A stretch of 64,000 nucleotides of DNA, taken from assembly GCA_038049695.1 (NCBI GenBank), contig CP142455.1:65482501-65546500 (forward strand). The letters run 5' to 3'. Below the pieces are notes generated by a model. It was not told where the DNA came from. It made no database searches and saw only the letters and a list, made by a program, of their open reading frames with translations. Below are positions 23,526 to 63,743 of this stretch, piece after piece. The stretch comes from Cinnamomum chago. Its lineage: Eukaryota > Streptophyta > Magnoliopsida > Laurales > Lauraceae. Position numbers and translations under genes: made by a program. Within the stretch, counting starts at the first letter, position 1. Every line of letters begins with the position of its first letter.

Positions 23526-24252
23526 TGTAAGTGCCTAAAAATTACGGACTTAGCTAATGGAGGATCAAGCTCCTGATTTGAGGATTTGGGGAAGACGAAG
23601 GGAAAGGATCGGGCCTCCAATGACCTGAAAGGAAGAAGATGACAGTTAGAGACCCTGGCTATGGGCAGCCGAAGGCCCTCCGACGCTCAAGTCAGTGTGA
23701 GAACTGAAAGAGAATGGAGAAAGAGAGTTCTGGGAGGGGAGGATTATGCGTACCTCGCATGGTTTTCCTTCATGCAATATATATAGACGTGAGAGTCATC
23801 ATGGCACTGTCCACATGAAGGGATGACAGTCCCATCAGCGTGTATTCGTACCTCCTGAGTGGGGGTAGGTAAAAAGGGAATGTCCCATCGGACCAGCACC
23901 CCTTACCTATGGACATGACTTTAGATAAGGCGTGCTCCTTATCTAGGTCCGGCGCCCACTCTGTTGTCAGTTTGCCGATCCCGTCATGGCAGCGCATTTA
24001 TGGCCACATTAATGGCTGAGTGACAGGGGCCGAGATCAGAAAGAGGCTGAGGCCGAGGTCGGGAAGAGGCTGAGGCCGAGGTCGGGAAGAGGCTGAGGCC
24101 GAGGTCGGGACTCGTGACGTAGCCACCGAGACTCGCCCTACGATTCTTCCGAGATGACGTTGCGGCCGACCTTGAGCGGTGCCGAGACCAATGGTAACCG
24201 AGACTGGAGGGTGACCCCATCTAAATCCGCGAGCACCGAACGACCCCACACA
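23526..24252 (-). repeat. 3' LTR of the Tat element
   Basis: 727 bp, opening TGTGTGGGGTCG and closing GGCACTTACA on the minus strand. It contains three tandem copies of a 23-bp unit (core GAGGCCGAGGTCGGGAAG) at about 24,030-24,105; the other LTR has two. A purine-rich stretch (AGGGGGCAAT) abuts it internally at about 24,253-24,262, the position of a polypurine tract. Confidence 0.95.
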
Positions 24253-27261: not shown

Positions 27262-27657
27262 GATTTTTATCTCTTATGCAATTTTTTCTTTTCTTTCGGA
27301 TTGTATAGAAAGCTCTGTATCCATTCCTCCATTAATGAATTTTTCTTTTTGATTCACCAACTGTTTTCCTATCTCTTTCTCCCTGCTATGTGATGTGGAT
27401 GTTTTGGTGCGAAATCTTGCAAGTCTTTGAGGTCGGTAGAACATCTAGACTTTAACCCTTCTTTCTCAAGAAGGAATTTGCAGTTAGTTTCGGCTCATAC
27501 CCCGAGATGCGGCCCGTTCGCTGGAGAGCTGGGCATGGACCAAACTTGTGCGTAGGCCGAACTCTGTGCCTTCGCGGATGGCCCTATTCGCATCCCGTGG
27601 TGATTGTTGCTCGGAGTTGCTGTGAGGGACAGAGCCTTGGTCCCGTGACTGGCTTCT

Positions 27658-27962
27658 AGGAGGCTGGCGCGAGGGCCGGTGCCTTGGGGAGTTGGTCCTG
27701 TGACCGAACTCAAGGAGGCTGGCGCGAGGGCCGGAGCCTTGGGGAGTTGGTCCTGTGACCGAACTAAAGGAGGCTGGCGCAAGGGCCAGAGCCTTGGGGA
27801 GTTGGTCCTGTGACCGAACTCAAGGAGGCTGGCACGAGGGCCGGAGCCTTGGGGAGTTGGTCCTGTGACCGAACTCAAGGAGGCTGGCGCGAGGGCCGGA
27901 GCCTTGGGGAGTTGGTCCTGTGACCGAACTCAAGGAGGCTGGCGCGAGGGTCGGAGCCTTGT
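27658..27962. repeat. 55-bp tandem repeat, about 5.5 copies
   Basis: Unit AGGAGGCTGGCGCGAGGGCC plus 35 more bases, starting at 27,658, 27,713, 27,768, 27,823, 27,878 and 27,933. Copies are nearly identical. It lies between the end of the antisense open region and the end of integrase, where the two transcription units would converge. Confidence 0.95.
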
Positions 27963-34009: not shown

Positions 34010-34713
34010 TGTAAGTGCCTAAAAATTACGGACTTAGCTAATGGAGGATCAAGCTCCTGATTTGAGGATTTGGGGAAGACGAAGGGAAAGGATCGGGCCT
34101 CCAATGACCTGAAAGGAAGAAGATGACAGTCAGAGACCCTGGCTATGGGCAGTCGAAAGCCCTCCGACGCTCAAGTCAATGTGAGAACTGAAAGAGAATG
34201 GAGAAAGAGAGTTCTAGGAGGGGAGGATTATGCGTACCTCGCATGGTTTTCCTTCATGCAATATATATAGACGTGAGAGTCATCATGACACTGTCCACAT
34301 GAAAGGATGACAGTCCCATCAGCGTGTATTCGTACCTCCTGAGTGGGGGTAGGTAAAAAGGGAATGTCCCATCGGACCAGCACCCCTTGCCTATGGACAT
34401 GACTTTAGATAAGGCGTGCTCCTTATCTAGGTCCGGCGCCCACTCTGTTGTCAGTTTGCCGATCCCGTCATGGCAGCGCATTTATGGTCACATTAATGGC
34501 TGAGTGACAGGGGCCGAGATCAGAAAGAGGCTGAGGCCGAGGTCGGGAAGAGGCTGAGGCCGAGGTCGGGACTCGTGACGTAGCCACCGAGACTCGCCCT
34601 ACGATTCTTCCGAGATGACGTTGCGGCCGACCTTGAGCGGTGCCGAGACCAATGGTAACCGAGACTGGAGGGTGACCCCATCTAAATCCGCGAGCACCGA
34701 ACGACCCCACACA
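34010..34713 (-). repeat. 5' LTR of the Tat element
   Basis: 704 bp, same ends as the partner LTR, with two instead of three copies of the 23-bp unit. It abuts the PBS-like site at 34,009 and the CCTAT duplication at 34,714. Confidence 0.95.
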
Positions 34714-39350: not shown

Positions 39351-40799
39351 CTAACGGCTAACCTCATCCAACATCAAGCCCAAAGAGCGCCAAGAAGACC
39401 CACCTTCTTCAACAGCCCTTCTGGCTTTCTCTCCCAACTCCTTCATCTGCTTCCCAGCCTCCTTCCCTTTCTCTCCCACCATCAGCTCCCTTACCATCTC
39501 CCTCACTCTCTCCCACCCCACCATTCGACCTCCTTCTTCCTTCACTCTCAACCCGATCCCCAACTCCTCCACAACCATTTTCGCATTCATAGGCTGCTCT
39601 GCCATCACTGGCCACGCCAAAATAGGCACCTCTGCACAAATGCTCTCAAGCACTGAGTTCCACCCACAATGGCTCAAAAACCCTCTAACAATCTCGTGCT
39701 TTAGTATCTCCCCCTGCTCCACCCACTCCCTCACCACCATTCCTCCCTCTGCAACTCTCTCTTCATACCCACCTCCCAATTCCACTTCCTTTCCCCTCAC
39801 AACCCACAAAAAATCCACCCCAGATCTCTCCAACCCAATCCCAATCTCCATCAGCTGGGTTTGTGAGATCTCCGCCTGGGTACCAAATGCAACATACAAA
39901 ACAGGCCTCTGCTTGGCTTCCCTGTCGTCAAGCCATTGCACCCATCTGGGTTTTTCCAGTGATTCGTGCTGGTTTAGAGGCGATGCGGTGCAGAGAGGCC
40001 CAACACACCAAGCTTTTGGGTTGAATTTTCTGTTGAAGAAGTCAACATAGATGCTTTCGAGCTCGTAGAAGCTGTTGACAACTATCCCACTGCTTTGGGC
40101 TGTTGCTCTTCCGGACTCCATCACAAGATCGAAAAAGGGTCCTTTGGGTTCTGGGTCTTTGAAGGGCTCATTGAGGTCGCGCCTGCAGAGCATAATGTTA
40201 GGAAAGAAAGGCAGGGAGAAGAGCTCGTCGTCTGATTTGACATCTTTGAGGGACCCATGCTCGAAAATAAGGCGTGGGATGATCATGGAAAAGGTGTTCA
40301 TGCCAAAGAAGATAAGTGATGGCACGCCTACCTTGGAAGCAGAGAGCTGAGCCCATGGAAGGAACCCATCATGGATGACGCAGGAGACATGTGGGAGGAG
40401 GGTGGAGAGGACTTCCTCGAAGTGGGGTTGGAGAAGTTTGGTGGCATGAACGAAAGGGAGGAAGAGAGACATGGAAGGAAGCTTGGCTGTGCTTTCTACT
40501 CCAAGAGGGAGATTTGGAGGGCTTCGAGGGAAAGGAAGCTCGAGGACTGTGACCGTGGTGTGGGTGAGAGAGGAGCGAATGAAAGAAGAATTTGCAGGTG
40601 TGGTGAAGATGGTAACGATGATGTTGCGGTTGTGGAGGAGGTGGGCAAGATGGAGGAGAGGGATGGTGTGGCCTTTAGACATGAAAGGAAGGAGCACAAC
40701 ATGGGTGGTAGAAGGAGCAGAATCAGCAGCAGCAATGGTATTGGAAGTCTCAATGGAAATAAGAGGAGGAGCAGGAGGTGTGATTTCAAGAGAAGCCAT
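39351..40799 (-). CDS. UDP-glycosyltransferase, UGT90-like, intronless
   Basis: 482 residues in one exon. Family 1 glycosyltransferases move a sugar, usually glucose, from UDP-sugar to small acceptors in the cytosol. The catalytic His is about residue 44 in FMSKGHTIPLLHLAHLL and the partner Asp about 144 in VIHDGFLPW. The 44-residue PSPG box runs from W359 to Q402 (WVEQGEILKHEIVRGFLSHC, GWNSVLESICAEVPILAWPV, MAEQ). Its final Gln favours UDP-glucose. Ala replaces the common Gly before VP in the box. The overall sequence closely follows Arabidopsis UGT90A1 as I remember it (WCVGPLC, LYVAFGTQAEIS, NAKMVVEE). Length is typical and the frame intact. The acceptor is unknown. A partial copy lies at 21,985-22,515 in the same orientation. 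The first ATG is used; the N-terminus is about 25 residues longer than the motif start needs. Confidence 0.95.
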   Translation of the reverse strand: MASLEITPPAPPLISIETSNTIAAADSAPSTTHVVLLPFMSKGHTIPLLHLAHLLHNRNIIVTIFTTPANSSFIRSSLTHTTVTVLELPFPRSPPNLPLGVESTAKLPSMSLFLPFVHATKLLQPHFEEVLSTLLPHVSCVIHDGFLPWAQLSASKVGVPSLIFFGMNTFSMIIPRLIFEHGSLKDVKSDDELFSLPFFPNIMLCRRDLNEPFKDPEPKGPFFDLVMESGRATAQSSGIVVNSFYELESIYVDFFNRKFNPKAWCVGPLCTASPLNQHESLEKPRWVQWLDDREAKQRPVLYVAFGTQAEISQTQLMEIGIGLERSGVDFLWVVRGKEVELGGGYEERVAEGGMVVREWVEQGEILKHEIVRGFLSHCGWNSVLESICAEVPILAWPVMAEQPMNAKMVVEELGIGLRVKEEGGRMVGWERVREMVRELMVGEKGKEAGKQMKELGEKARRAVEEGGSSWRSLGLMLDEVSR

Positions 40800-44457: not shown

Positions 44458-47400
44458 TTATGAGTCAGGTATAACAGCGGAGGGGAAAAACCTCATGAGG
44501 AAACTTGAGAGAGACCAGATGCATATCACTCCAAGGAAATGGAGGACATTCAATAGAGTCCCCAGTGAGCTATTTATGGCCATGGTCTGGGATGTTGTCT
44601 CGGCTCCCCTGACTGAGAAGGACAGCGCCGTGACCAACTGAGCTGCTCTATTCAGCTGGTGGAGTCTGTAAACCTGAGAAAGAGAAAGTCCATTTTTACA
44701 GTGTAATATAATAGTTAAGAAGGATGCAATGCAGTTATCACCATTCAGGAAAACAAAGGGGCAGAGGTAGCTATCTGAAGAATGCCATGACAAAGTAGAT
44801 GAGCCTTGACCCAATAAGGATACATAGAGGAATCACATAACCTTCAGCCTTGATTTTGTACACATGGGTTTCAGTTTAAGGCTGCAAGGTTTATTTTTCA
44901 TCATGGGCCCTGTCATCTGAAAGATCACAGTATCTGATGTATTGTGCTTATGTTCCTCTTTTTCTTTTTCCTTTTTCTTTTATTGATGTGATTGTGCTTA
45001 TGTGAGTGTGAAACTACTGTTCTTCATTAATCAAATATTGCAAGTCATTGACAGAATGGTTAAAATGGTCCGAGCAGGAGAGTTGGGCATCTGTAAGGGT
45101 CCCATGATGCCATTAGAGAGAAATTCAGTAGAAACACGTGACCTCCTTCACAACTAACGAGCTTGTACATATAGAGCTCACGAGACAATGACCAAGACTG
45201 CAGGTCAAATTTGACAAGGATCTATTATCATTAAATAGACCTCAGCCATCGTCAGCTAGCAAGACAAAATGCCGATGTCTGCTATTCTTCCAGAAACAAG
45301 GATATGGGAATATGCCCAGGCAGCACATATGTGCAAGATTTGATCCATATCAAGGTGGGCCTCCAATGGATGGCTGAGTGAAAAAGCAGGCTATCAATGG
45401 AGGGTGATAGAGCTGAACCAATTGAAAACACTTGGGACAACAACCAACATTCATTGCATATGTGAGGATTTCAGGAGTAGACTGGCCTTTCTTCCGTGAC
45501 CAACAAAGTGGATTTCACCTGAATCCTAGTTTGGGTGTCACATGGCAAATCCGCATATGCAGCCAAATAATAATGAGTATAGATAGTGTAGTGTGAATTG
45601 TGATATTAGAACACTTTAGCAGGTCCTCACCTGAAAGATAACAGGAATGACAGGCCAAGCTACTGACTTTCTATATCTTGCATACTGTTCAAATGCAAAT
45701 TGCACAATAAGCCCAACCAAATATGGAGCAAGAGTAGCCGAAGCTGCAGGCCCAGTCCATGGCCAGACCAATCCCATTGTCACCAGGGGTATAATCAGGC
45801 TTAGTACCAAGGTAGCCACAGAAGAAATCCGATGCCCTATTCCAGCTTTTGACAGGCTGTTACTAACAGAAATTACTGTCCTGCGAGGTTTCTGCATGTG
45901 ATCCATTATAAGAACAAAGATAGCAACCCCACTATAGAAAAGAGCTTCTGTGAAGAACAATATCAGGAAATCTGCATACGAAAAATAACATAGTTTAGTA
46001 CAGTAACAGATGCAGCTTCTCATCAAAGCAGTAAAAAAGATGCAAGGATACATCTTCATGTGCCCCAAATTCAATCAATAAAAAATGAAAGAACATCCGT
46101 GGATTATCGTAAAACATGTTATGACTGAAGGTTCCTAACCATGAACTTCAGACTCTAGTTCAAAGTAAAATGAGCAGAGCCTTATTCTACTTGGGATATA
46201 TAATGCCATGAAAATTTCCCCAAATCCAGGGACTAGTTTTAACTTAATTTCACTTTCTGCATTTTACCAAACAGTTTTCAGCTGCTATGGCCCTGTTTAG
46301 TTTACACGTTTCCAATTTGGCCAAAACCTAGCACACCATCAATGATTTAGGCCGAAGAAAATGCAACAGTCAGGAAAAAGAAAAGGAAGAGAAGAAAAAA
46401 GTCGACAAAATGCTGTAACATATACAAAGGCTAAAAATAGTGCTTGTACAATGAAGGGAAGGCTTACAAGTTTAATGAGCAGGGGCCTAGGAGACAGTCG
46501 ACACCAACAATAAAGACCATGACAAAAAGTAGGGAGGAAAGAAATGTACACACACACACACACACACACAGACACACACTCCCTTTTTACTCCAAAATGG
46601 ACAGAACAAACCCTGCCTTTAGTGAGATCAACTCAAAGGAGGAAGAAGAAAAAAGAAAACCAATCACTCTTCAGTTCATTCGACTAAAAGACAGAAGAAA
46701 GAAAAGGGGGAGGAGGATGGCGGGGTACGTGCGAAGAATGGTGTAACGTGAAGTAGCCGACCTGAGGCCAAATCTACAGCTAGAGCTTGAAGCCGAACAG
46801 GTTTGCTTATCCTTCTACCGTTGACTTCTGCTTTTCCTTTTTTTTCCTGTTTGTTTTCACTGTTATGCTGCATTTGGCCATTGTTTATTGTCCCAAAAGA
46901 GTTTTTTTTTTTTTTTATTCTAAAATCTGTGCATACAAGTGCAAGTAGAAAGAATGTAGATGCTTTTTTAGGTATTTTGAATAAAGTTGTTTTGTTGGTT
47001 GGGCTAGAGAATGTTGTCCAATTTATAACAGACACTGATGTCGCATATAACGCAACAGGAAAGCAACTGGCGATAAAATATGGAACATTCTATTAGACAG
47101 CTTGTGCAGGACACTGTATCGACCTGATTTTAGAAAAATATGGTGAGGCCCTTGTAGAGACAGATAAGATGGCAAGGAAAGTGACTAAACTGATTTGCAA
47201 TCATGCATATGTCTTGAATTGGATGAGAATATATTATACTAATAGGGGAGATCTGGTTCACCCAACTATCACAGAATTCGCCATTAATTTTATTAGCTTG
47301 CAATATCTTTTTGAGTTCAGAAATGAAGTTAGACAAATGTGGACAAGTAATTCTTGATCCAAATCTAGCTATTCTTCTACTCCTATTGGCTTGGAGATCA

Positions 47401-49626: not shown

Positions 49627-52600
49627 AAACTTTCATGCACAATGGTTTGAAAAAGAGGATTTTCAGACATGGCCGATCCTAGAGTAAATATTAAAATACA
49701 AAAAGCTAGCCCAAGAATGCAACAAGATGATTCTTTACTCCACTGAATAAATAACACCCAGCATGCAAAAGTAACAGCAAGACTAGGATGGGAGGGGACC
49801 AAAAAGGGTCAGAAAGAGAGAACATACTGCATAAATTTTATCTAAAAAACTGGCTTTTCAAATGCAACAGTATTCCATCCTTCACAGGGATGAAGAAGTT
49901 TGATCGTTACCTTCCAACATTTGGAAGAAAAATCATGTCAATAAAAAAAAATAAAAAAAAAAAAGCAGCAGCATCCGGTTAAATAGGTTTGATTTTAAAA
50001 GGGAAAAAAAAAGTTTTCAAATGCGACAGTAGCTCCATCCTTCACAACAATCGAGAAGGTTGATCTTTGCGTTCCAACACAAGGCAACAAAATCATGTCA
50101 ATGCATAAAAGAAGCATCAGGTTAACTTACCAGTTAGAAGGGAGTCCTCAAACACAGTCGATAGTATTCTCCGTAGATATAGTGATGGGAACACCAAAGA
50201 GGCCACCAAGACTGCTGGACCAATAAACCAGAAAAAATTCGATTGTCCCTTTGGTGGGTCTGATACAAGGACATCGTCCTGTCTTCTGTATGAAAGCCCA
50301 TAAAAGGAGATAAGACCAGGTTTTCCATCTGATTTCTCAGTGTGGAAATTCGAACCGCTTTCTGCAGATATTTCTTTGGCAATAACAAATGGCTCTTCTT
50401 GCTCCGAAGCAATTGAGTTTAGTTCATCATTAGGTGTCTGATCTTCAGAAGCAGCAAAGAGAATTAACCCTCTCTTCAGAAGTTTACCCTTCACCTTGAG
50501 CATCCCATATACAAACTGGCTTGATTTGCCTACTTGTCAAAACATACACACATAAAGATGACAGTCTTCCTTAAATTGAGATTTTACAGGAGTAGAAATC
50601 AAAACCATTACCGCCAACTCACAGCAGATGAGAAAGATTTACCCTTATCAGTGCTTAAACGTTGAAGCTCACATCTCTGGCCTTCAGATGAGAAAGATTT
50701 ACCCTTATCAATGCTTAAACGTTGAAGCTCACATCTCTGGCCTTCAAACAATCCCAATGACAAACTTGGCTGTCCAACAACAGAATGGAAATTAAACAGA
50801 GGAAGAAAATTATAAACTAAAAAGTCTCAAAAAGAACATATTTCGCATGAATATCTAGGTGACTATCCCATTATCCCCATCCTCAAACTTTTTTGGATAG
50901 CTTTTGAAGTCATAGAGCAACAATCCTCTAAATTCTTTGATTTTCTAGCCCAACACCATTGATACAACTGGCATGGTAGTCCTGTATAATTAATCCTTAG
51001 GTTCATTATTAGTGTCTCCTCATTTATTGCAAATTGAACCCTGATATCTAACAAAAGCTAATATATTCAAGTAATGTTCTACGGATTTCTTCTCCTTCGC
51101 TCCCTCTCCCCAAACCCAACCCCTCTCCTCTCTCCCTAGTTCGTCATTCATAGATTTTTTCCCTAGTCAATTAAGTATTTTAGAATGTTGTATCAGGAAA
51201 GAACGTACCCACCCAGTAAAGTTTTTTGGATGAAAAAAATAAAACTATGAGAATTCCAAATGCAAGGGGTTCAATGTGATCCCAACTTGACCAAGTTGAA
51301 CATTGAGCATGGGTGGAAGACCCAACAAGATGGATACCTTCAAACAGAAGAGCTTCAGCCTCGATTAGCGGTTAACCATGCCTGAAGTCAATGTGAATCG
51401 AATCTAGGGTTATAGAAACCTTGCTTGTTGCTACAACATATCATGAGGAAGATTGTCTTCTTCTTGCCCAGATCCAGCGTTAAACTGGAACAATTATAAT
51501 ATGTTGTGTCTACCCAAGTAAGATTTTCACCTTAAAGAAAATTCTCTAAAGCAATCTTATTCCAAATAACCATCTATCATCTTATTCCAAGAAGCTATCT
51601 CAAAAATATTCTCAAAATCTATTTTACAAGTAAAAGAAGGAAACCTAATTAATCTAAACGACTAAAATTTAATAAGCTAAATCATCCATCTAAATATAAT
51701 AAGCGAAAAAAGAATACTTAAACTCATAATTATCACACACTCTAAAATGAGTCAGAAGAAGAAAACAAATTGAAATAAATTTACAAATAAACTACTCCAT
51801 AGGCCATGGCTTTAGGTGATTTGGTTGAAACATGAGCCCAGTGGATCTCTTATATACAGCCCAAATTCCTTCCAGATTGGAGGAAAGTCACCATCAAGTT
51901 TTTAAGTGGCATTGTTGTCCTTATGGATTGAACAATAAACACACAACAACGAACATTCATCGCCGTGGCTCCATCAGATCTTCGCCAGCATGCTAAGATG
52001 AGAGTTGAATCCTCTACACTGTAGCTAGATCTAGGTGTAACCTTGTTAAATAGTTAGGTCTTTTCAGTGATGTCATAGAACCATTGAAATCAATTAACAT
52101 CCTCATCTGTCCCCTAAATTTGCTTTGATTGTCAACCACAATCTAACTGTTGATTGGATTACTAGAATGTTGCTTCCCATCTCCAACAATAAAACCAATT
52201 GCCTCCAGAGTTTCTGATGTCACATACAGAAATTCAATTTACTTTTCATTTCTCTAAAGTAATTTTATTCCAAAAAACACAATCTATACCATTAAATAGA
52301 ATATGCCAAATGCCAGACATCTAAAGATAATAAAATTATATAGAAGTCACATCTCCCTAAATTTGTAATACTCGTACACTCAACCGGAAAATTGACCGCA
52401 ACTTACTCAATAGGACTCAAAAAGATAAAAATAAAATTAATATAACATTACAAAAAGACCACTCCATGAGCCATGACCTCAAGTGACTTGGTTAAAAACA
52501 TGAGCCCACGTGGGTCCCATGTATACTAGCTGCATCATCTTTGATGATGATAGACATTGAAGATTAACACTACTAGCTGCATCATCTTTGATGATGATGA

Positions 52601-55600
52601 GACATTGAAGATCAACACAACGAGAATTTCAGGAAGATGCAAGTTGCATCCTTCTTTCCCATATATATTAATATTCAAATATCAACGTGAATAATTCAGT
52701 AGTCTAATAAAGTAACACGGTACATAGTGAAAATGGTGTATTTAGACTATAATCATCATGTTAAACTAAAGAAAATATTTTCAGTTCAAGGAACCCAACA
52801 TGGTTGGGACAAGGGTTTGATGATGGTGGTGGTGGTGGTTTTCAGTTCAAGGTACTTAACAGATAGACTAGTGTTTTTCTCCATCATTTATTTCCGCATT
52901 GCAAGATTACTAGGTGTCTTTGGTATTTCCTGATGTACCCTTATTTCAATTTATTGGGTCCTATGTCCAATGTTCAGGAACATTATGAATGATCAGTATC
53001 CACATCCCTTTAAAGCCCAAGGACCAATTTATGAGGAAGTTCCTGGCACTACCCTTGGCTTGGACTGCTTGGAAGAAAAAGTATTGGAGAATTTTATTCT
53101 ACTAAAGAGTAACAGATGGTAACGTTAGGAGCACTAGCTTCCAAAATTGAACTCTCTAGGCAGCACACTCAAACCACCCTAACCCAAAAACACCAACTAA
53201 CCACGACCCTCCTTAAACCACCCATCTATTAATGACTCAAGGGTCCGGTTGGATGTAGAGAAATGTAGGAAGGAGACCTTTTTTTTCTCTAGTGAAAAAA
53301 AAAAAATTTCCCATTTGGATACAATTTTAGGGAGAAAAATAGTTCCCTTCTAAACTAACTTGTGCAAAATAATAGGAGAAAATAGTTTCTCCTAAAAGGG
53401 TGGAGAAAACACCCTTTCCACATTGAAATTCTAATTTTTATCAATAAAATTGACCAGTAGCACAGTTGGAAAGTGCTCATTGTTGCAACTGCAAGCAGGG
53501 CTGAATCATGTTACATCATTATCATCATCGCCTTGTCCAACCATGGTGGGGTCGGCTACATGAATCATATTTCTCCATTCTGATCTACCTTGAGTCAAAT
53601 CCTCCAATAAGTTGCACTTCTACAAATCTACTTTTATTGCTTCCATCCACATCCACTTCAGCCTACCCCTTTTCCTTACCGGCACCGTTACCGGCCTGTC
53701 TTGGACGTTCCCAAACCATCTCAAACGGGTTTCTCTAATTTTATCCCTCATTGATGATATCCTTAGATGCTCTCGAAAATGCTCATTTCTAATTTTATCC
53801 TTCCTAGTTTTACCACACATCCACCTTAACATTCCCATCCCTCTGCTACATCCATTTTGTGCATATGTTGCTTCTTGATTGGTCAACATTTTACTCCATA
53901 GGTCATAGCTGATCTAATCACAGTCCTATAAAATTTTCCCTTCAATCTTGTTGAAATCCGTCGATCATAAAGCACTCCAGAAGTAAATCTCCACTTCAAC
54001 CATCACACATTTATCCTATGTTTGACATCTGCATTAATCTCCCCATCCTTGCTAATTATCGAACCAAAGTAACGGAAAGAATCTCTTTATGGACTTCAAT
54101 TCTCGCAGTAGTTTCAACTCTTTGTAAATGCCCACTAAAGTTGCAATCCATATATTCTGTATTTGTAAGATTTATTTTAAAGCCTTTGGATTCTAAAGCC
54201 TCCCGCCATCTCCTGAGTATTACATTCACACCATCTCTTGATTCATCCACCAACATTATATCATCTACAAACAACATACACCAAGGCGCCTCATCTTGAA
54301 TATAAGTAGGTAACTCATCCATAATCAAGTCAAAGATGTAAGGGATTAGAGATGACCCCTGATGCAAACCTATGGTCGTTGGGAACTCATGTCTCTCCAC
54401 AGGTAGTTCTCAATCTCGTTACCGCTCCTTCATAAATATCTTTAATCATTTTAATATAACCTCTTGGAACATTCCTTTTATTTAAAACCCACCAAATTAA
54501 ATCTCTAGAAACCTTATCATGAGTTTTTTCTAGATCGATAAAGACCATATGCAAAATTTTCCTCTTCACTCGACATTTATTTTTTTTTAAAACCATGATA
54601 GAAATTCATTGCTCGAAAGAAACTGTACAGTATAAGAATGGCGTACTGCATACAAAAAACCCATAAGATGGGAGAGAAAACAAAAAATAAGAGGACAGAA
54701 GCTAATTCTCCCAAATAAACACAAAAGGCCATTAAGAATGCATGGTCAGAGTAGTTTTCCAGACTCCCTCTTTGGCAAGCTTATTAGCTCCCTCGTCGGC
54801 CAACCGCTTAATATGTTGGAATGATATGTTCAAAACTCCAGAAAGTTGGATCACCTCTTCAAAGATATCTAGAAGGTTGGAGGACCGGGTTGCCCATTGA
54901 ACGTCGCAATAGGAATCTCCTTCCACAATTAACCGCTGGGGTTACAAACTTGAAGCTTGTCGAAGACCGATGTTAAGAGCCAGCAATTCGGCTTAGTTAA
55001 TCGAACAGAAACTTGTTGGACCCGAATAGGAAAGAAGGATGGTTCCTACCTCATTACGGATAACACCCCCCGACCTGCCGAGCCAGGATTCCCAATAGCA
55101 CTACCGTCAAAATTAAGTTTAAGAGCACCTGAAGGTGGATGACACCATTTAAGGGAAACAGTCTGGCGGTGAGCTCTAGAAAAAGTTACTTCCTTCCAAT
55201 TCTGAATAAGGTTACTTATGGGAAACCCAGTATCACCTCTCCGCTCCATATTTTTCCATTAATTGCATAAGTGAGAAGATAGCTTCCATAGCTGACCTCC
55301 CTAACATAAAACCAAATTGATTATTAGATATCTTGGTCTTTTGTCTTAGTCTTTACTCCATTACTCTCTCCCATAGCTTCATAGTATGACTCATAAGTTT
55401 AATCCCACAGTATTTGGTACAGTTTTGTATATCTCTCTTGTTCTTTTATATATAGGTCTTACAACATTTCTTCTCCATTCATCCGGCATCTTCTTTGTCA
55501 TTAATATATTATTGAAGAGCCTAGTTAACCAAATCCCCCCAACTTCTTCTAAGCATTTCCAAGCCTCTATCGGAATCATTGTTTAAAATATCGGCCGATA

Positions 55601-58600
55601 CCGGTACGTATCGGTCATGAACGATCCAATATTTCACAATGTAACGGTATCGATATTGGTCCAGTGAACTATCACCATCGTATCAGTAATATCAGATGAT
55701 ATTTTAAAATATTAGCGGAAAAACGGTATCACCCAATATATTCACCATAGTGGTTCTGAAGTCTGGAAAAAAAAAAGTAGAGAGAAGAAGAAAAAGGGGG
55801 AGGGAGACACAATCTACGTGCATTCCGCTTGAAGTTCTTAACAAAACAAAAACGAAAAAAAAGACAAGGGGAAGGAGAGATCATCTTGGAGTGAAAAAAA
55901 AAAAAGAAAAGAAAGAAAGAGACGGAATAGAAGGGGACGTACCTATACAAGCCTTACTCTGGTGGTTGCCGCTCCTTGCCTCTTCTTCTCTCACCCTTTT
56001 TTTTCTTTCCTTTTTTTTTTTTTTTTCTTTTTCCCCACTTTCCCCTTCCGAAAGCCAAGAAAGGGGCAACCCAATGGATAGATTTTTACTAATTGTTGCC
56101 AAGGTGGGTAAACATCCATTTTATGATAGGTGGTGTGACTTCAAGTTATTTTAAGCTTTTAACTTTTTAAGTGACGAAAAAAAAAAAAAAACTTCTAAGT
56201 GACTAGATCTCTTAAGGGCTCCAAGATGAGGCCCACATTAAGTTCCTGCTTGCCAACTAAATGACGCACTATTACATATGGGTATTGGCAAATTTCAACC
56301 AAATTCGAGTGGGCCCACATTTAGAATGACCAGATTTTAAAATATGGGACCATTATGGAGAGTAAAAAAAAAAACTTAATATTGAGCATTTTTAATTAAA
56401 TGTTCCTGGCTAATAGGCCCGCATAGGAACAAATGCCCGCACTTGAATGGTCCCATAGCAAATTTTATCTAGATTCCACAATGGGATTACTCACTTGCAA
56501 AACATGTAAATAAAATTAAAAAGAAAGTTCTAAGAGATTCTATTGAATCTAGATTTTAAGTGATCTAAACTTAAATATGAGCTACATTAATAGATTTATA
56601 AATTGTAAGAATTGGCCCGAAAATTAAATACTAAAACTTAACATATCTAAAAGCTTTAGATAAGACAGTGACACGAGATGTTAGGGGGACCGATATTTTG
56701 ATTTATGCTTGTTATTAATAGGAAAAAAAAATTGTTTTCCAACATTTTACAATATTATGGATTTTTTGGATATTTTTTTAAAAAGTTTTGGGGTTAAAAA
56801 AAATTTACACCGCCACGATCGTGACAAGCCGAGAACTGCGACGGTATTGATTTTTTGGGGTTGACTGATACCGCGATTTTCATCCATGATCGGAATGCCA
56901 TCTACACATGTAGCCTTTCCTGACTTCATTTGTTTCAATGCTTTCCTCACTTCCACCACCTTAATTCTGCGGAAAAAAGTATGTTCTGCTAACAAAGTTT
57001 CCTCGCTTGTTCCCATTCTCCTACACAGTCTTCATTCAAAAGTTTGCTAAAATATTTCATCCACCTTTCTTTGATATCTTTGTCCTTCACTAGAACCTTT
57101 TGGTCATTGCTTTTAATACATTTGACATGGTCTAAGTCTCTACTTTTCCTTTCTCTTATTTTTGCAAGCTTAAAAATACCTTTCTCTCCTTCTTTAGTTC
57201 CTAACCTATTGTATGTGTCATCATATGCTTTGAACTTTGCAATGCTTACAACTTTCTTAGCTTCTTTCATTGCCTTCTTATCATCGAAACAAATATTAAA
57301 AAGACAACTACTATATGAACAATGTTCCATTTGTTCCAAATAAATTTTCATCGACATTATTGGACGACTTTGGTGGGGACATGAAGAAATGAAATCTCCA
57401 ATACGATTAGAAGAGCGCGGGTTCATCAAATAGTACAAGAACGATCTTGACAAGGCCTTTGGTAGTGGCAAATATCAACCCATAGGGATGCAAACTGGTA
57501 TCGCAGCTGACGAAGGGTGGAAATTCAAGTAAATGAAAGTCAATGACGGGAGGATCTACATGGAACAACCGCACAGTTTTGGGGACCAACAGAAGCTAGC
57601 ATCACGAGCATAGAAAACCTTTTCAATTCCAATGGAAAGTTAGCATACTGAGCATCAAGTCAGTGCTAAGGGGGAGTGTTGAAGTCATCGCTGACGCAAC
57701 ACATGCACTAGAGGGCAGGATCAGTAACGCTAATTAGATTGGGAGTAGGATTAGTTTCCTTACTTAATTGGGTCTCTTCATTTGATGAGATTGTGGTTAT
57801 CGTTTATGGCTGTGTTTCCTATTTTGGTTCTTATTTAGAAGGTTTGCTCTTAGTTTTCTATACAAATGTTTGCTGTAATGCGCCTCTAGTAGAATGCAAT
57901 AAAAAGGGTTTCTTGTGTTCCCTCTTTCACCTCCTCTCTTTCCCCCAACACTCCAGAACAATCCACTTAAAAAAAAAAAAAAAACTACTAGACAAAAAGA
58001 CCCAAAGCAACATCAACTATTAATAAATAAGGCATTATCAACTCAAAATACCATGCAACTACCATCGGCTACACTGTAACAACAGAAGGTGGCAGTAATA
58101 TAGGATGAAAGATCACCTCCCTTATTACTTGGAATTAAATGAGGCTGATTCAGCATCTTAGGAAAATGCATGGTTTATAACAAAACTTTGGGAAAAAATA
58201 TAAAATGGAGCAACAATTTCATTTTTCCTTGAGATTTTCCCAAAGATTGCTAAAAATCAATAATATTTTTCTTCAAAAATAAAATAAAAAAGAACCCCCA
58301 AACCTCTCTTTGATCCCTGCTCAATCATAAGCACCCATTTTAAAGCTTCCTCTGGGACCTGTCCATATAACTTAAGGGACTAATTGTATGGGTGTAGAAG
58401 GAGACTTCTTCGGCCTTCAATCGATCTGAGTAAGATAGAGAATATAGAATGGAGAGGAGAAGATGAGATAGAGAAGAAAAAAGGAAGATGCTAGAAAGAG
58501 ATACAAGGAGACGAAAGCCATGGGTGTATAGTTCTCTATGTGCTCTTATACATGTTTTCGGAACATAAGAGAGCTCCTTCATTTGGATTGATTATACTAG

Positions 58601-61506
58601 GCATCACATCCCCCATCTTCTTTGTTAACAGCCTATACACGTATCACACACGTTATGGGTGTAAAATCCTTGAGTTCCTCCAGCCTTCTCTCTTTACGCA
58701 TCTACGATGGAAGAATTTGTATCCATATTTAATTTGCTTATAGGGAAATCTCCTAAAATCTCCAACAAAGTCTCCTTTCATAAAATACCATTCCACCTTA
58801 ATGAAGGTGAAGTTGAAACCATCCAAACTTGATGTTGTATCTCCTACATTTCTTATGACTCCAACTTCATCCTCTCAAAACTCCCTCACCGACCATTGTA
58901 TTAAATAACATCAAAGTCAATCCCATCAAAAGTTGGGTGTAACACATCTTCATAAGTTAACAAATTATCATTAGTGAACAAATTAACAAAATGATCTTTT
59001 CCTCCACTTTAAACTTCATCAAGTTCCACTAACTTTCTAGCATACTTCTTAATACTTCGAAGAGTATTTGATCTTCATTTGCATTACACATTCTGAAAAA
59101 AACTAAGTATTCCTCTCTCATTCCACCATCATTGCCTTGGTTTTTGCATCCAAAGAATGTCTTCATTAATTGTAAGGTCCACAGCTTGGATTTGTTGGCT
59201 ATGCCAATGGGTTGGATCTGATTGACCCAATAGCTCACAGACTAGGCCCAGTGGACTTGGGCCTGGCTCAACTTGCACCATAACTGGTACATGGTCCTAA
59301 AATTTCCAATTATCTTGACTCTACACACTCCATTATATTTCCCTCCCAACTCTTTGGAATAAAAAACTTGTTCGGGCTGATCGCTGCCAGTGATTCTGTC
59401 ACTAGGCAACATAAGTCTTGCCGTCACTAATGGAAAATCAATTAGGTCATTCATAATTGTGAACCTTAAAATCTTTCCATTGAAGGAGGACTGATGTAAC
59501 ACCCTTCTCTCCTTTTTGCTTCAAATGGAAAATGAATCATATTGAAATCTCCATCATGCACCATGGTAGATTGAGATGTTGTTTGCATGTAGTTCTTTTT
59601 CATAAGATCCTCCTCTTTTTGTAGCGTCATTCAGCCCATATATGTTACTTGCCAACAACATAAAACCATTTTCCTGGTTTCTGAAAACTACATAGATTCC
59701 ACTTTCTCCTTCAATCTCAAATTCAATCTGCATGACCCACTCATTCAATACAATTTTGAATACACCCCAAGCCCCTGCTGATGGAACCCAACTCCATCCA
59801 TACTGTGCTTTCCCCAAAATTTTTGCTACTATTCTCTGTTGTTTCTTCTAGTTTAGATTCTTGGAGAAACATTATAGCCATCTTCCTTTTTCTAATCAAT
59901 TTCTGCACTGCTGTGTGTTTTTCTTTACTACCCAGCCCATAGGCATTCTATGAAACCATCTGCTTGGTCAATTTTGACTGCTACAAATAGCCCCTTCACC
60001 TTTTTGTTCTGTCCCTTCCCCTTCCTCCTTAACCCAAGTTACCTTATATTAATTACACATTCCTCTCTCTTTGCTGTTTCAATTTGTTTTGAGTCACTTC
60101 AAAGTAGCTTTTGAAGCATTTTATGGTTTGTCTTGACTGAGATAATCAACCAAGCTCTCTTTAAGATAACAATGGAAACTGAAAAGCATTCCCATGCCAA
60201 TAACTTTCTTCTTTTAAGGGCATTTTCTTTTGTCTTCACATATTGAATTCTTAGACTTTCTAGCCAATGTGCTTCTATCAAAGGAGCAAGGAGTGCAAGG
60301 ATTAGAGATTTAAGTGTACAAAAGACCAATTTGATGGGAAACAAATGCCAAGTGCCAACCCTACCCTAGTAAAATGAACCCTAGATAACTGATGGTCCCC
60401 TCTAGGTCTCTACATTCACCATTCACTCTTCACCTCTCAATACAACTTAGACAAAAGCATCTTTCTCATGAATTCCTAAGATTTCAATATGAACAAAAAA
60501 AAAGGCATATGAAATGCAAGTTTCCCTAAATAAGCAATAAAATATTATAAGTTCTTTCATGTAATTGAATTCCAAGAAATTCAAAGACTTGTATATTTAT
60601 AAAAGTGGTTAAATGAAGAAACAAAGGTGAATGTCCAAAAATTACCATCAAATAATCTCCCTTTTTATAGAAAATGAATCAAGGGAGATAGGAAATGAAT
60701 ACCCAGCCATCGCCCTAGTAATTCAAATCCTAGGGAAGTCAAGGACCCATACACATTTTTAATAATCCTTTTGTTGGAGCCCATTTAATCATGGATTCCT
60801 CTGCATTGCAAACAATCGGGTCCTCAATGTAAAATGCAAATTCCACTAAAAATTCAATAAAATGATTCTACAGTATAAATGACAATTCTTGATTTCAACC
60901 CCAACAAACTGAAACCCATTTCACATTTAAAAAAAAATGGTAACATGACTTGAACCCACACCCTAACACATTTTGATAAATAACATCACGAATTTGTTGC
61001 CAATGATAATTCCTTAAAAGAGTTCTAGAATCATAAACTCATATCAGTCAGAACCTAAAATCAATATAAAAATAAATTCATGAGAGAGAGATGGAATGGG
61101 TCATGGGAAACAAAAGGCAATCACTATTCACTACAGTGGACAATTTGCAAGACATCAATCAATAGCCGAATAAAAAAGAATATGACTGCAAGAGCAAACC
61201 CCCAAACTGCATGTTAGTTAAACCCCAAGAAAGTAAAAATAAAAATCCTACAAAAAGAATAAGGGTATTTCTAGAACAAAGCAGAAGCAAACATTTCAGC
61301 TGTAGATTGAAAGATTGAAATGAATAAATCACTATCAAGCAAGTACCACTACCCCTGGCACAGTTCATTAAAAGCTCAAACAATAGTAATAACATGGGTC
61401 ATCCTTGTAAACAACAGTAATATACCTTAGAATTCTTCTGAAGAGAAGGAGAAGAGATAGAGATTGAAGCCCAGGAGAAGGAAGAGGACCCAACTGAGAC
61501 TGACAT
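44458..61506 (-). CDS. Probable plastid multi-pass membrane protein (five exons, 17 kb)
   Basis: Exons on the minus strand: 61,426-61,506, 50,703-50,769, 50,131-50,529, 45,631-45,971 and 44,458-44,673. All borders are GT-AG and all phases agree, giving 367 residues. Exon 1 encodes a Ser-rich N-terminus (MSVSVGSSSFSWASISISSP) like a chloroplast transit peptide. Exon 3 ends with a hydrophobic helix (FFWFIGPAVLVASLVFPSLY). Exon 4 has further helices (DFLILFFTEALFYSGVAIFV; VATLVLSLIIPLVTMGLVWP then WTGPAASATLAPYLVGL). Exon 5 has VYRLHQLNRAAQLVTALSFS and LLNVLHFLGVICIWSLSSFL. These blocks are highly conserved in unnamed plant proteins as I recall; function is unknown. Intron 1 is 10.66 kb and full of transposons. 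Exon 1 is the least certain exon. A duplicated donor at exon 2 could add 20 residues. Confidence 0.85.
45972..46929. other. Intron 2 DNA with an (AC)n microsatellite
   Basis: Right after exon 4 on the plus map. (AC)n lies at 46,548-46,579. Otherwise no gene or repeat recognised before the hAT remnant. Confidence 0.45.
47687..48145 (-). mobile_element. LTR-like insertion in the hAT remnant (fossil)
   Basis: hAT coding sequence stops at about 47,686 and resumes at about 48,146. The insert, read on the minus strand, opens near TGTGGGTTCAAAAATTAGGC, has TTTATAAGGAGTTG, AATAAAGAATGAGTTTTCTC and a G/T-rich end (CCTTGTTGCGTCACCACAGC), the layout of an LTR. No target duplication found. Confidence 0.45.
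48621..48739 (-). mobile_element. tRNA-derived SINE, 119 bp
   Basis: On the minus strand, box A (TAGCTCAGCTGG, matching TRGCNNAGYNGG) and box B (GTTTCGAGTCC, one off GGTTCGANTCC) are spaced as in a tRNA. A C-rich link and an A-rich tail (CCAAAAAAACCCAAAACAAA) follow. A perfect 14-bp target duplication, CTTTGTGCATTATA, flanks it (48,607-48,620 and 48,740-48,753). Its small size and tail mark a LINE-mobilised SINE, not a tRNA gene. Confidence 0.85.
49585..49624. repeat. (GA)n microsatellite
   Basis: Twenty GA units, in intron 2 of the membrane-protein gene. Confidence 0.95.
50625..50745 (-). repeat. 60-bp tandem duplication across an exon end
   Basis: Two copies of a 60-bp unit with a single difference (GCACTG/GCATTG on the minus strand). 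Each carries the end of exon 2 and its donor, GATAAGG|GTAAAT, at exon ends 50,703 and 50,643. Both donors keep the frame, so the isoforms would differ by 20 residues. Confidence 0.95.
50770..53459. other. Intron 1 DNA with a diverged direct repeat
   Basis: Blocks at about 51,520-51,860 and 52,240-52,520 resemble each other (TCTCTAAAGYAAT-TTATTCCAAA near the start; CTCCATRRGCCATGRC, GTGAYTTGGTT and ACATGAGCCCA at the end). A 47-bp tandem duplication is at 52,524-52,617. No coding sequence seen. Confidence 0.45.
52524..52617. repeat. 47-bp tandem duplication
   Basis: Two copies starting TACTAGCTGCATCATCTTTG at 52,524 and 52,571. Confidence 0.9.
54590..55247 (-). mobile_element. L1 3' end with RNase H, inserted in the RTE LINE
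   Basis: Minus strand: SLKWCHPPSGALKLNFDGSA, IGNPGSAGRGVLSVMR, then EGDSYCDVQWATRSSNLLDI and RLADEGANKLAKEGVW. This is the RNase H domain seen at the end of some plant L1 ORF2s, then a 3' UTR and an A-rich end. It replaces RTE sequence between MEKY and the VFIDLEK motif. Broken by frame changes; 5'-truncated. Confidence 0.75.
55577..56888. mobile_element. hAT non-autonomous element, 1,312 bp, with 8-bp duplication
   Basis: It interrupts the RTE codons DGIPI/EAWKC, leaving ATCGGAAT on both sides (55,569-55,576 and 56,889-56,896), the 8-bp size of hAT. The ends CATTGTTTAAAATATCGG and CATGGATGAAAATCGCGG (inverted) match at most positions. The interior holds GGCCGATACCGGTACGTATC and a long purine/pyrimidine-rich stretch (55,770-56,050) but no transposase. 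Confidence 0.88.
57345..57950 (+). mobile_element. Ty1/Copia 3' end with LTR (fossil)
   Basis: The LTR spans 57,677-57,950 (274 bp), opening TGTTGAAGTC and closing CCCCCAACA, with AATAAAAAG near its end. Directly before it is the purine tract AAGGGGGAG, the usual Copia polypurine tract. Non-coding sequence of the internal 3' region precedes it. Only the 3' part is present. Confidence 0.75.
57951..58989. other. Intron 1 DNA, no feature recognised
   Basis: AT-rich with an A run at 57,968-57,984. No coding or repeat ends recognised. Confidence 0.4.
58990..60100 (-). mobile_element. L1-type LINE fragment, endonuclease region
   Basis: On the minus strand, in shifting frames: NRKRKMAIMFLQESKLEETT-like sequence (about 59.85 kb), LLASNIYGLND (59.66 kb), GDFNMIHFPFEAKR (59.53 kb) and NDLIDFPLVTARLMLPSDRI (59.42 kb). 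This is the order of the apurinic-type endonuclease at the start of plant L1 ORF2. No RT was found. Several frame changes. Confidence 0.75.
60101..61425. other. Intron 1 DNA with a MITE-related repeat
   Basis: About 60,558-60,810 is a diverged copy of the interior of the MITE at 42,370-42,690. A further pair of similar blocks (AAATGCAARTTYC...CAATAAAAT) flanks it at about 60,508 and 60,835. The remainder is unrecognised. Confidence 0.45.
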
Positions 61507-63484: not shown

Positions 63485-63743
63485 ATTTTTGGCAGATTCT
63501 TCTTTTTTGATGTTGGGAAGCCCCTGATCTTTGTTCAAGTCAATTAGTTCTAAACATAATAAAAGCATTAGGATGTTGTGGTGTTCTATTATAACTAGAA
63601 AAACACACCCGTGATTTTTGGCAGATTCTTCGTTTTTTGATGTTGGGAAGCCCCTGATCTTTGTTCAAGTCAATTAGTTCTAAACATAATAAAAGCATTA
63701 GGATGTCGTGGTGTTCTATTATAACTAGAAAAACACACCCGTG
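63485..63743. repeat. 129-bp tandem duplication
   Basis: Copy 1 is 63,485-63,613 and copy 2 is 63,614-63,743. They differ by one inserted G and one T/C change, so the duplication is recent. Confidence 0.95.

Follow-up and report, generated by a model that had tools for sequence, protein, structure and literature searches.

A 60 bp tandem duplication places two identical candidate 5′ splice sites before one acceptor in a predicted plastid membrane protein gene of Cinnamomum chago

The host gene and its surroundings

A five-exon gene (61506–44458, minus strand) was reconstructed within the window by combining open frames with splice signals and intron phases; by the window we mean the whole 64,000-nucleotide stretch of DNA that was analysed. 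In this predicted model, the coding part of exon 1 (61426–61506) begins with a start codon at 61506, comprises 27 codons and ends in phase 0 at the donor AAG/GTATAT (the slash marks the exon–intron border). This exon was selected by its open frame, serine-rich start, donor, phase and composition, and it sits across a 10.7-kb intron from the rest of the gene. Exon 2 is predicted in a short form (50703–50769) and a long form (50643–50769), depending on whether the distal or the proximal of two donors is used. It is followed by exon 3 (50131–50529; donor CTG/GTAAGT), exon 4 (45631–45971; donor CAG/GTGAGG) and the coding part of exon 5, which includes a TAA stop (44458–44673). As read from the sequence, the predicted exons form one coherent gene model with matching phases. 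Skipping of exon 2 would lead to a stop at codon 40 and retention of intron 2 to a stop at codon 81.

The gene is otherwise ordinary and intact, and its product is probably a chloroplast membrane protein. A Pfam search of the product returned no family at E values up to 1, and a PDB search gave two chance-level matches (E 0.65) that are uninformative. Apart from the window itself, a genome search with the exon 3 protein found a single distant match, located on contig C4 (37% over 67 residues, E 7.7e-8); the exons around that match do not extend to an alignable exon 2, and this relative has no bearing on exon 2. Arabidopsis At5g27290 is a putative relative of the gene, with the likeness located in a stretch of exon 4, in which case the product would be a plastid protein of unknown function. 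Two papers list At5g27290 as an unknown, plastid-assigned protein (PMC3529323, PMC3651351), and in one of the two it serves as a marker of chloroplast perturbation.

According to the gene model, intron 1 (50770–61425) has a length of 10,656 bases and contains the remains of a reverse transcriptase, seen as an RVT_1 fragment on the minus strand (54056–54409, E 9.3e-10); three neighbouring frames were tested and matched no family. The same intron holds a two-copy duplication with a 47-bp unit and 95% matches (52524–52618). Elsewhere in the window, an intact open frame of 482 codons on the minus strand (39354–40799) matches the UDP-glycosyltransferase family (PF00201, E 2.6e-18).

The duplicated unit and its donors

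Positions 50625–50684 and 50685–50744 are two head-to-tail 60-bp copies which, by direct comparison, are identical at 59 of 60 positions and differ by one C/T change. This agrees with an earlier sequence-only reading, as does Tandem Repeats Finder (50625–50746, period 60, 2.0 copies, 98% matches, 0% indels, score 237). The similarity between the copies is far beyond chance. The duplication spans the border between exon 2 and intron 2 of the minus-strand gene, and its unit, correctly described before as a multiple of three, comprises 42 exon bases and 18 intron bases. In transcript order, the first copy (50685–50744) contributes 42 bases of exon 2 and the 18 bases past the distal donor, and the second (50625–50684) repeats this unit with C for T and holds the proximal donor. 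Microhomology at the junction amounts to 2 bp: CA is common to both ends of the duplicated stretch, so that the register is uncertain by at most two bases. When 401 bases around the duplication were compared as DNA with the whole genome (1.06 Gb, 14 contigs), the sole match was the window itself; this search found no paralogue or processed copy with the single-copy state.

An assembly artefact, or two alleles of a heterozygous plant placed end to end, might leave a similar pattern, and the single-base difference is of the kind expected between two alleles. However, there is no N anywhere in the window, the junction is clean with its 2-bp microhomology, and the genome sample described below contains several other two-copy duplications with 95–100% matches and varied unit lengths. 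We regard an origin of this kind as distinctly improbable.

Read on the minus strand, both copies contain the sequence GATAAGG/GTAAATC, and the doubling of the donor that had been proposed is thus present in the DNA. The G of the GT lies at 50702 in the distal donor and at 50642 in the proximal donor. With the acceptor that starts exon 3 at 50529, both donors are in frame, with introns of 173 nt (distal) and 113 nt (proximal), and the resulting products of 367 and 387 codons, respectively, have no internal stop, which bears out the claim that either donor keeps the frame with exon 3. An AG located 3 nt upstream of the main acceptor (exon from 50532) likewise keeps the frame for both. The locus therefore has the arrangement of an alternative 5′ splice site, with two donors able to serve one acceptor across introns of workable length.

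A third possible donor, GCT/GTGAGT (G of the GT at 50622, minus strand), is a candidate that had been thought to break the frame. It does so when joined to the acceptor at 50532, 50529 or 50519, but in combination with an AG that starts the exon at 50515 it is in frame and open, giving 389 codons. This open product adds to the case that the model is wrong at this point and that the real gene has a different exon 2 or a different donor there, which would place the duplication in intron or untranslated sequence, as does the placement of exons 1 and 2 from signals and phase alone. Against this, the frame requires exon 2, given exon 1 as placed, and the borders of exon 2 fit the splice consensus; we consider an error of this type unlikely.

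The splice sites were scored solely by their calculated pairing with the 5′ end of U1. The distal and proximal donors have the same value (−6.2 kcal/mol) and the third candidate a value of −5.5 kcal/mol, compared with −5.7, −9.1 and −11.6 kcal/mol for the other introns of the gene. About 6% of some 4,000 minus-strand GTs that were scanned pair with U1 as well as the doubled donors, which are thus not strong. Between +1 and +60, there are 17 U residues after the distal donor and 25 after the proximal donor, whereas the A+U counts are almost equal (35/60 and 37/60, respectively). In plants, a downstream sequence rich in AU or U reportedly influences the choice of donor (PMC9813592). If U-richness weighs on this choice, the proximal donor would be favoured owing to the more U-rich stretch that follows it, although the preference would be weak since A+U content after the two donors hardly differs.

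Frequency, origin and age of the duplication

To place the duplication against its genomic background, two-copy duplications were counted with the same finder and score throughout, by a rule that admits units of 25–300 bp, fewer than three copies and at least 95% matches. The comparison sample was a non-random 200 kb, made up of 20 stretches of 10 kb taken from the 10-Mb and 30-Mb positions of contigs C1–C10 of the same genome, and it contained nine qualifying duplications, two of them with at least 98% matches. The window has three (50625–50746, 52524–52618 and 63485–63743), of which the last is a near-perfect tandem duplication with a 130-bp unit and 98% matches. Scaled from the sample, such duplications would number roughly in the tens of thousands genome-wide, and some would therefore straddle splice sites. 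The duplication in exon 2 looks ordinary, a representative of a mutation kind that is common in this genome.

The chance of keeping the frame was estimated by simulating donor-spanning duplications with units of 20–120 bp over the four donors of the gene (21,093 placements). The unit length was divisible by three in 7,148 placements, and the product was also open in 2,262 (10.7%). Frame-keeping duplications are those that survive, and since about one in nine is in frame and open by chance, the preserved frame is no strong sign of selection. This result weighs against the idea of regulated alternative splicing, in which both donors would be used in a ratio dependent on tissue or stress and the precursors would differ in import or targeting. 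Both forms are in frame and open, and the calculated U1 pairing is equal for the two donors, which speaks for such regulation. However, the 2,262 of 21,093 placements mean that the frame alone carries no signal of selection, and there is no sign of long maintenance; we judge regulation of this sort very improbable. We give the same low standing to the related proposal that a very young doubling of the 5′ splice site produces two stable precursors whose transit peptides are 20 residues apart in length and which differ on import.

The age of the duplication was calculated from one difference in 60 sites with substitution rates of 1.5e-8 and 3e-9 per site per year. The faster rate gives 0.56 My (about 0.01–3.1) and the slower rate 2.8 My (0.07–15). 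A recent event, as had been suggested from the near identity of the copies, is thus plausible, but a single difference in 60 leaves a wide range of ages.

The head-to-tail arrangement, the copy length of some tens of bases, the near identity and the short homology at the junction all match short tandem duplications of the end-joining type, and the 2-bp microhomology fits break repair. Tandem duplications that arise in plants from inaccurate break repair were reportedly described by Vaughn and Bennetzen in 2014 and by Schiml et al. in 2016. Tandem duplications in rice are attributed to inaccurate break repair in PMC7407515, and a title cited in PMC8153287 attributes those in plants to adjacent single-strand breaks. 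The present case resembles such duplications: here too, some tens of bases are directly repeated and the junction shows hardly any homology, and only its position over a splice site is special.

Plant introns have a minimum length of about 60–70 nt, and the six possible introns between the two copies would measure 21, 26, 28, 35, 49 and 59 nt. On this ground we set aside the gain of a new intron between the copies and hold it to be extremely improbable, even though GGCCAG in the second copy follows a stretch rich in pyrimidines and intron gain by tandem duplication is proven for other genes (PMC3443670).

We consider it quite probable that a break-repair duplication arose in an intact predicted plastid membrane protein gene and left it with two competing identical donors and a near-neutral outcome. 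In a presumed single-copy ancestor, a DNA break repaired with little homology would have led to the duplication of the last 42 bases of exon 2 together with the first 18 of intron 2. Since then, the acceptor would have had a choice in the pre-mRNA between two identical 5′ splice sites separated by 60 nt. Use of the distal one would yield the message of a single-copy gene (367 aa), and use of the proximal one would add 20 residues (387 aa). The proximal donor would be expected to be the main site, with the distal donor used somewhat.

The longer N-terminus and related cases

The 20 residues gained by the long form are residues 51–70. Residues 1–77 of the short form include 18 S/T, 3 D/E and 11 K/R, and the insert contains 5 S/T, 3 D/E and 4 K/R; for its length, the insert is described as less basic and more acidic than the remaining N-terminus. 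Visual inspection puts the most probable cleavage region at FAA/S, which follows residue 76 in the short form, with the first membrane segment downstream of this putative region. The insert had been placed near the border between transit peptide and mature protein. The N-terminus is a putative transit peptide, and residues 51–70 are probably inside the part that would be removed on plastid import. Little effect on the mature protein would be expected, because the added residues are probably cut off at this step, although the composition of the insert may have an effect on import itself.

The duplication is a donor-side counterpart of a published acceptor-side case and no new kind of event. The closest published case considered is the potato RdRp gene (PMC4974935), in which a new intron arose from a tandem duplication that spans an acceptor border; as here, a short tandem duplication straddles a plant exon–intron border and includes a genuine splice signal. 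The two differ in that the acceptor side was copied in potato, giving a new intron, whereas the donor side is copied here, giving one intron with two donors. The potato case was also proven by RNA and DNA reads and shows ten differences between copies, compared with one difference and the sequence alone in the present case. More broadly, a review covers introns and altered coding sequence that derive from tandem duplication (PMC3443670), and the origin of introns by tandem duplication is shown for Drosophila positions (PMC2891723).

Competition between donors can turn constitutive exons into exons with alternative 5′ splice sites, and the intervening piece often keeps the frame (PMC1876488). 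The present locus is alike in that a second donor would compete with the original one and the piece between them is a multiple of three; the exons in that work are from vertebrates and acquired the new site by mutation, whereas a whole site was copied here and its dual use is only predicted. Among the matches listed, no title or abstract opening described a plant donor doubled by tandem duplication, a statement that covers those titles and openings and makes no claim of absence from print.

The modest value of the locus is that of a test case, in which two donors with the same sequence, set apart just by their position and by what follows them, would compete for a single acceptor. The gene is a native one with both products open, and it could reveal whether position or U-richness decides the choice of donor. 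If two precursors do form, the locus would be a natural experiment on how plants choose between equal donors 60 nt apart.

Multi-copy tandem arrays are also present in the window. A minisatellite at 27637–27961 consists of about six 55-bp units with 94% matches. A 23-bp unit (GGCCGAGGTCGGGAAGAGGCTGA) is common to two arrays with about 10 kb between them (24028–24110 and 34512–34571), which may belong to two copies of a single element.
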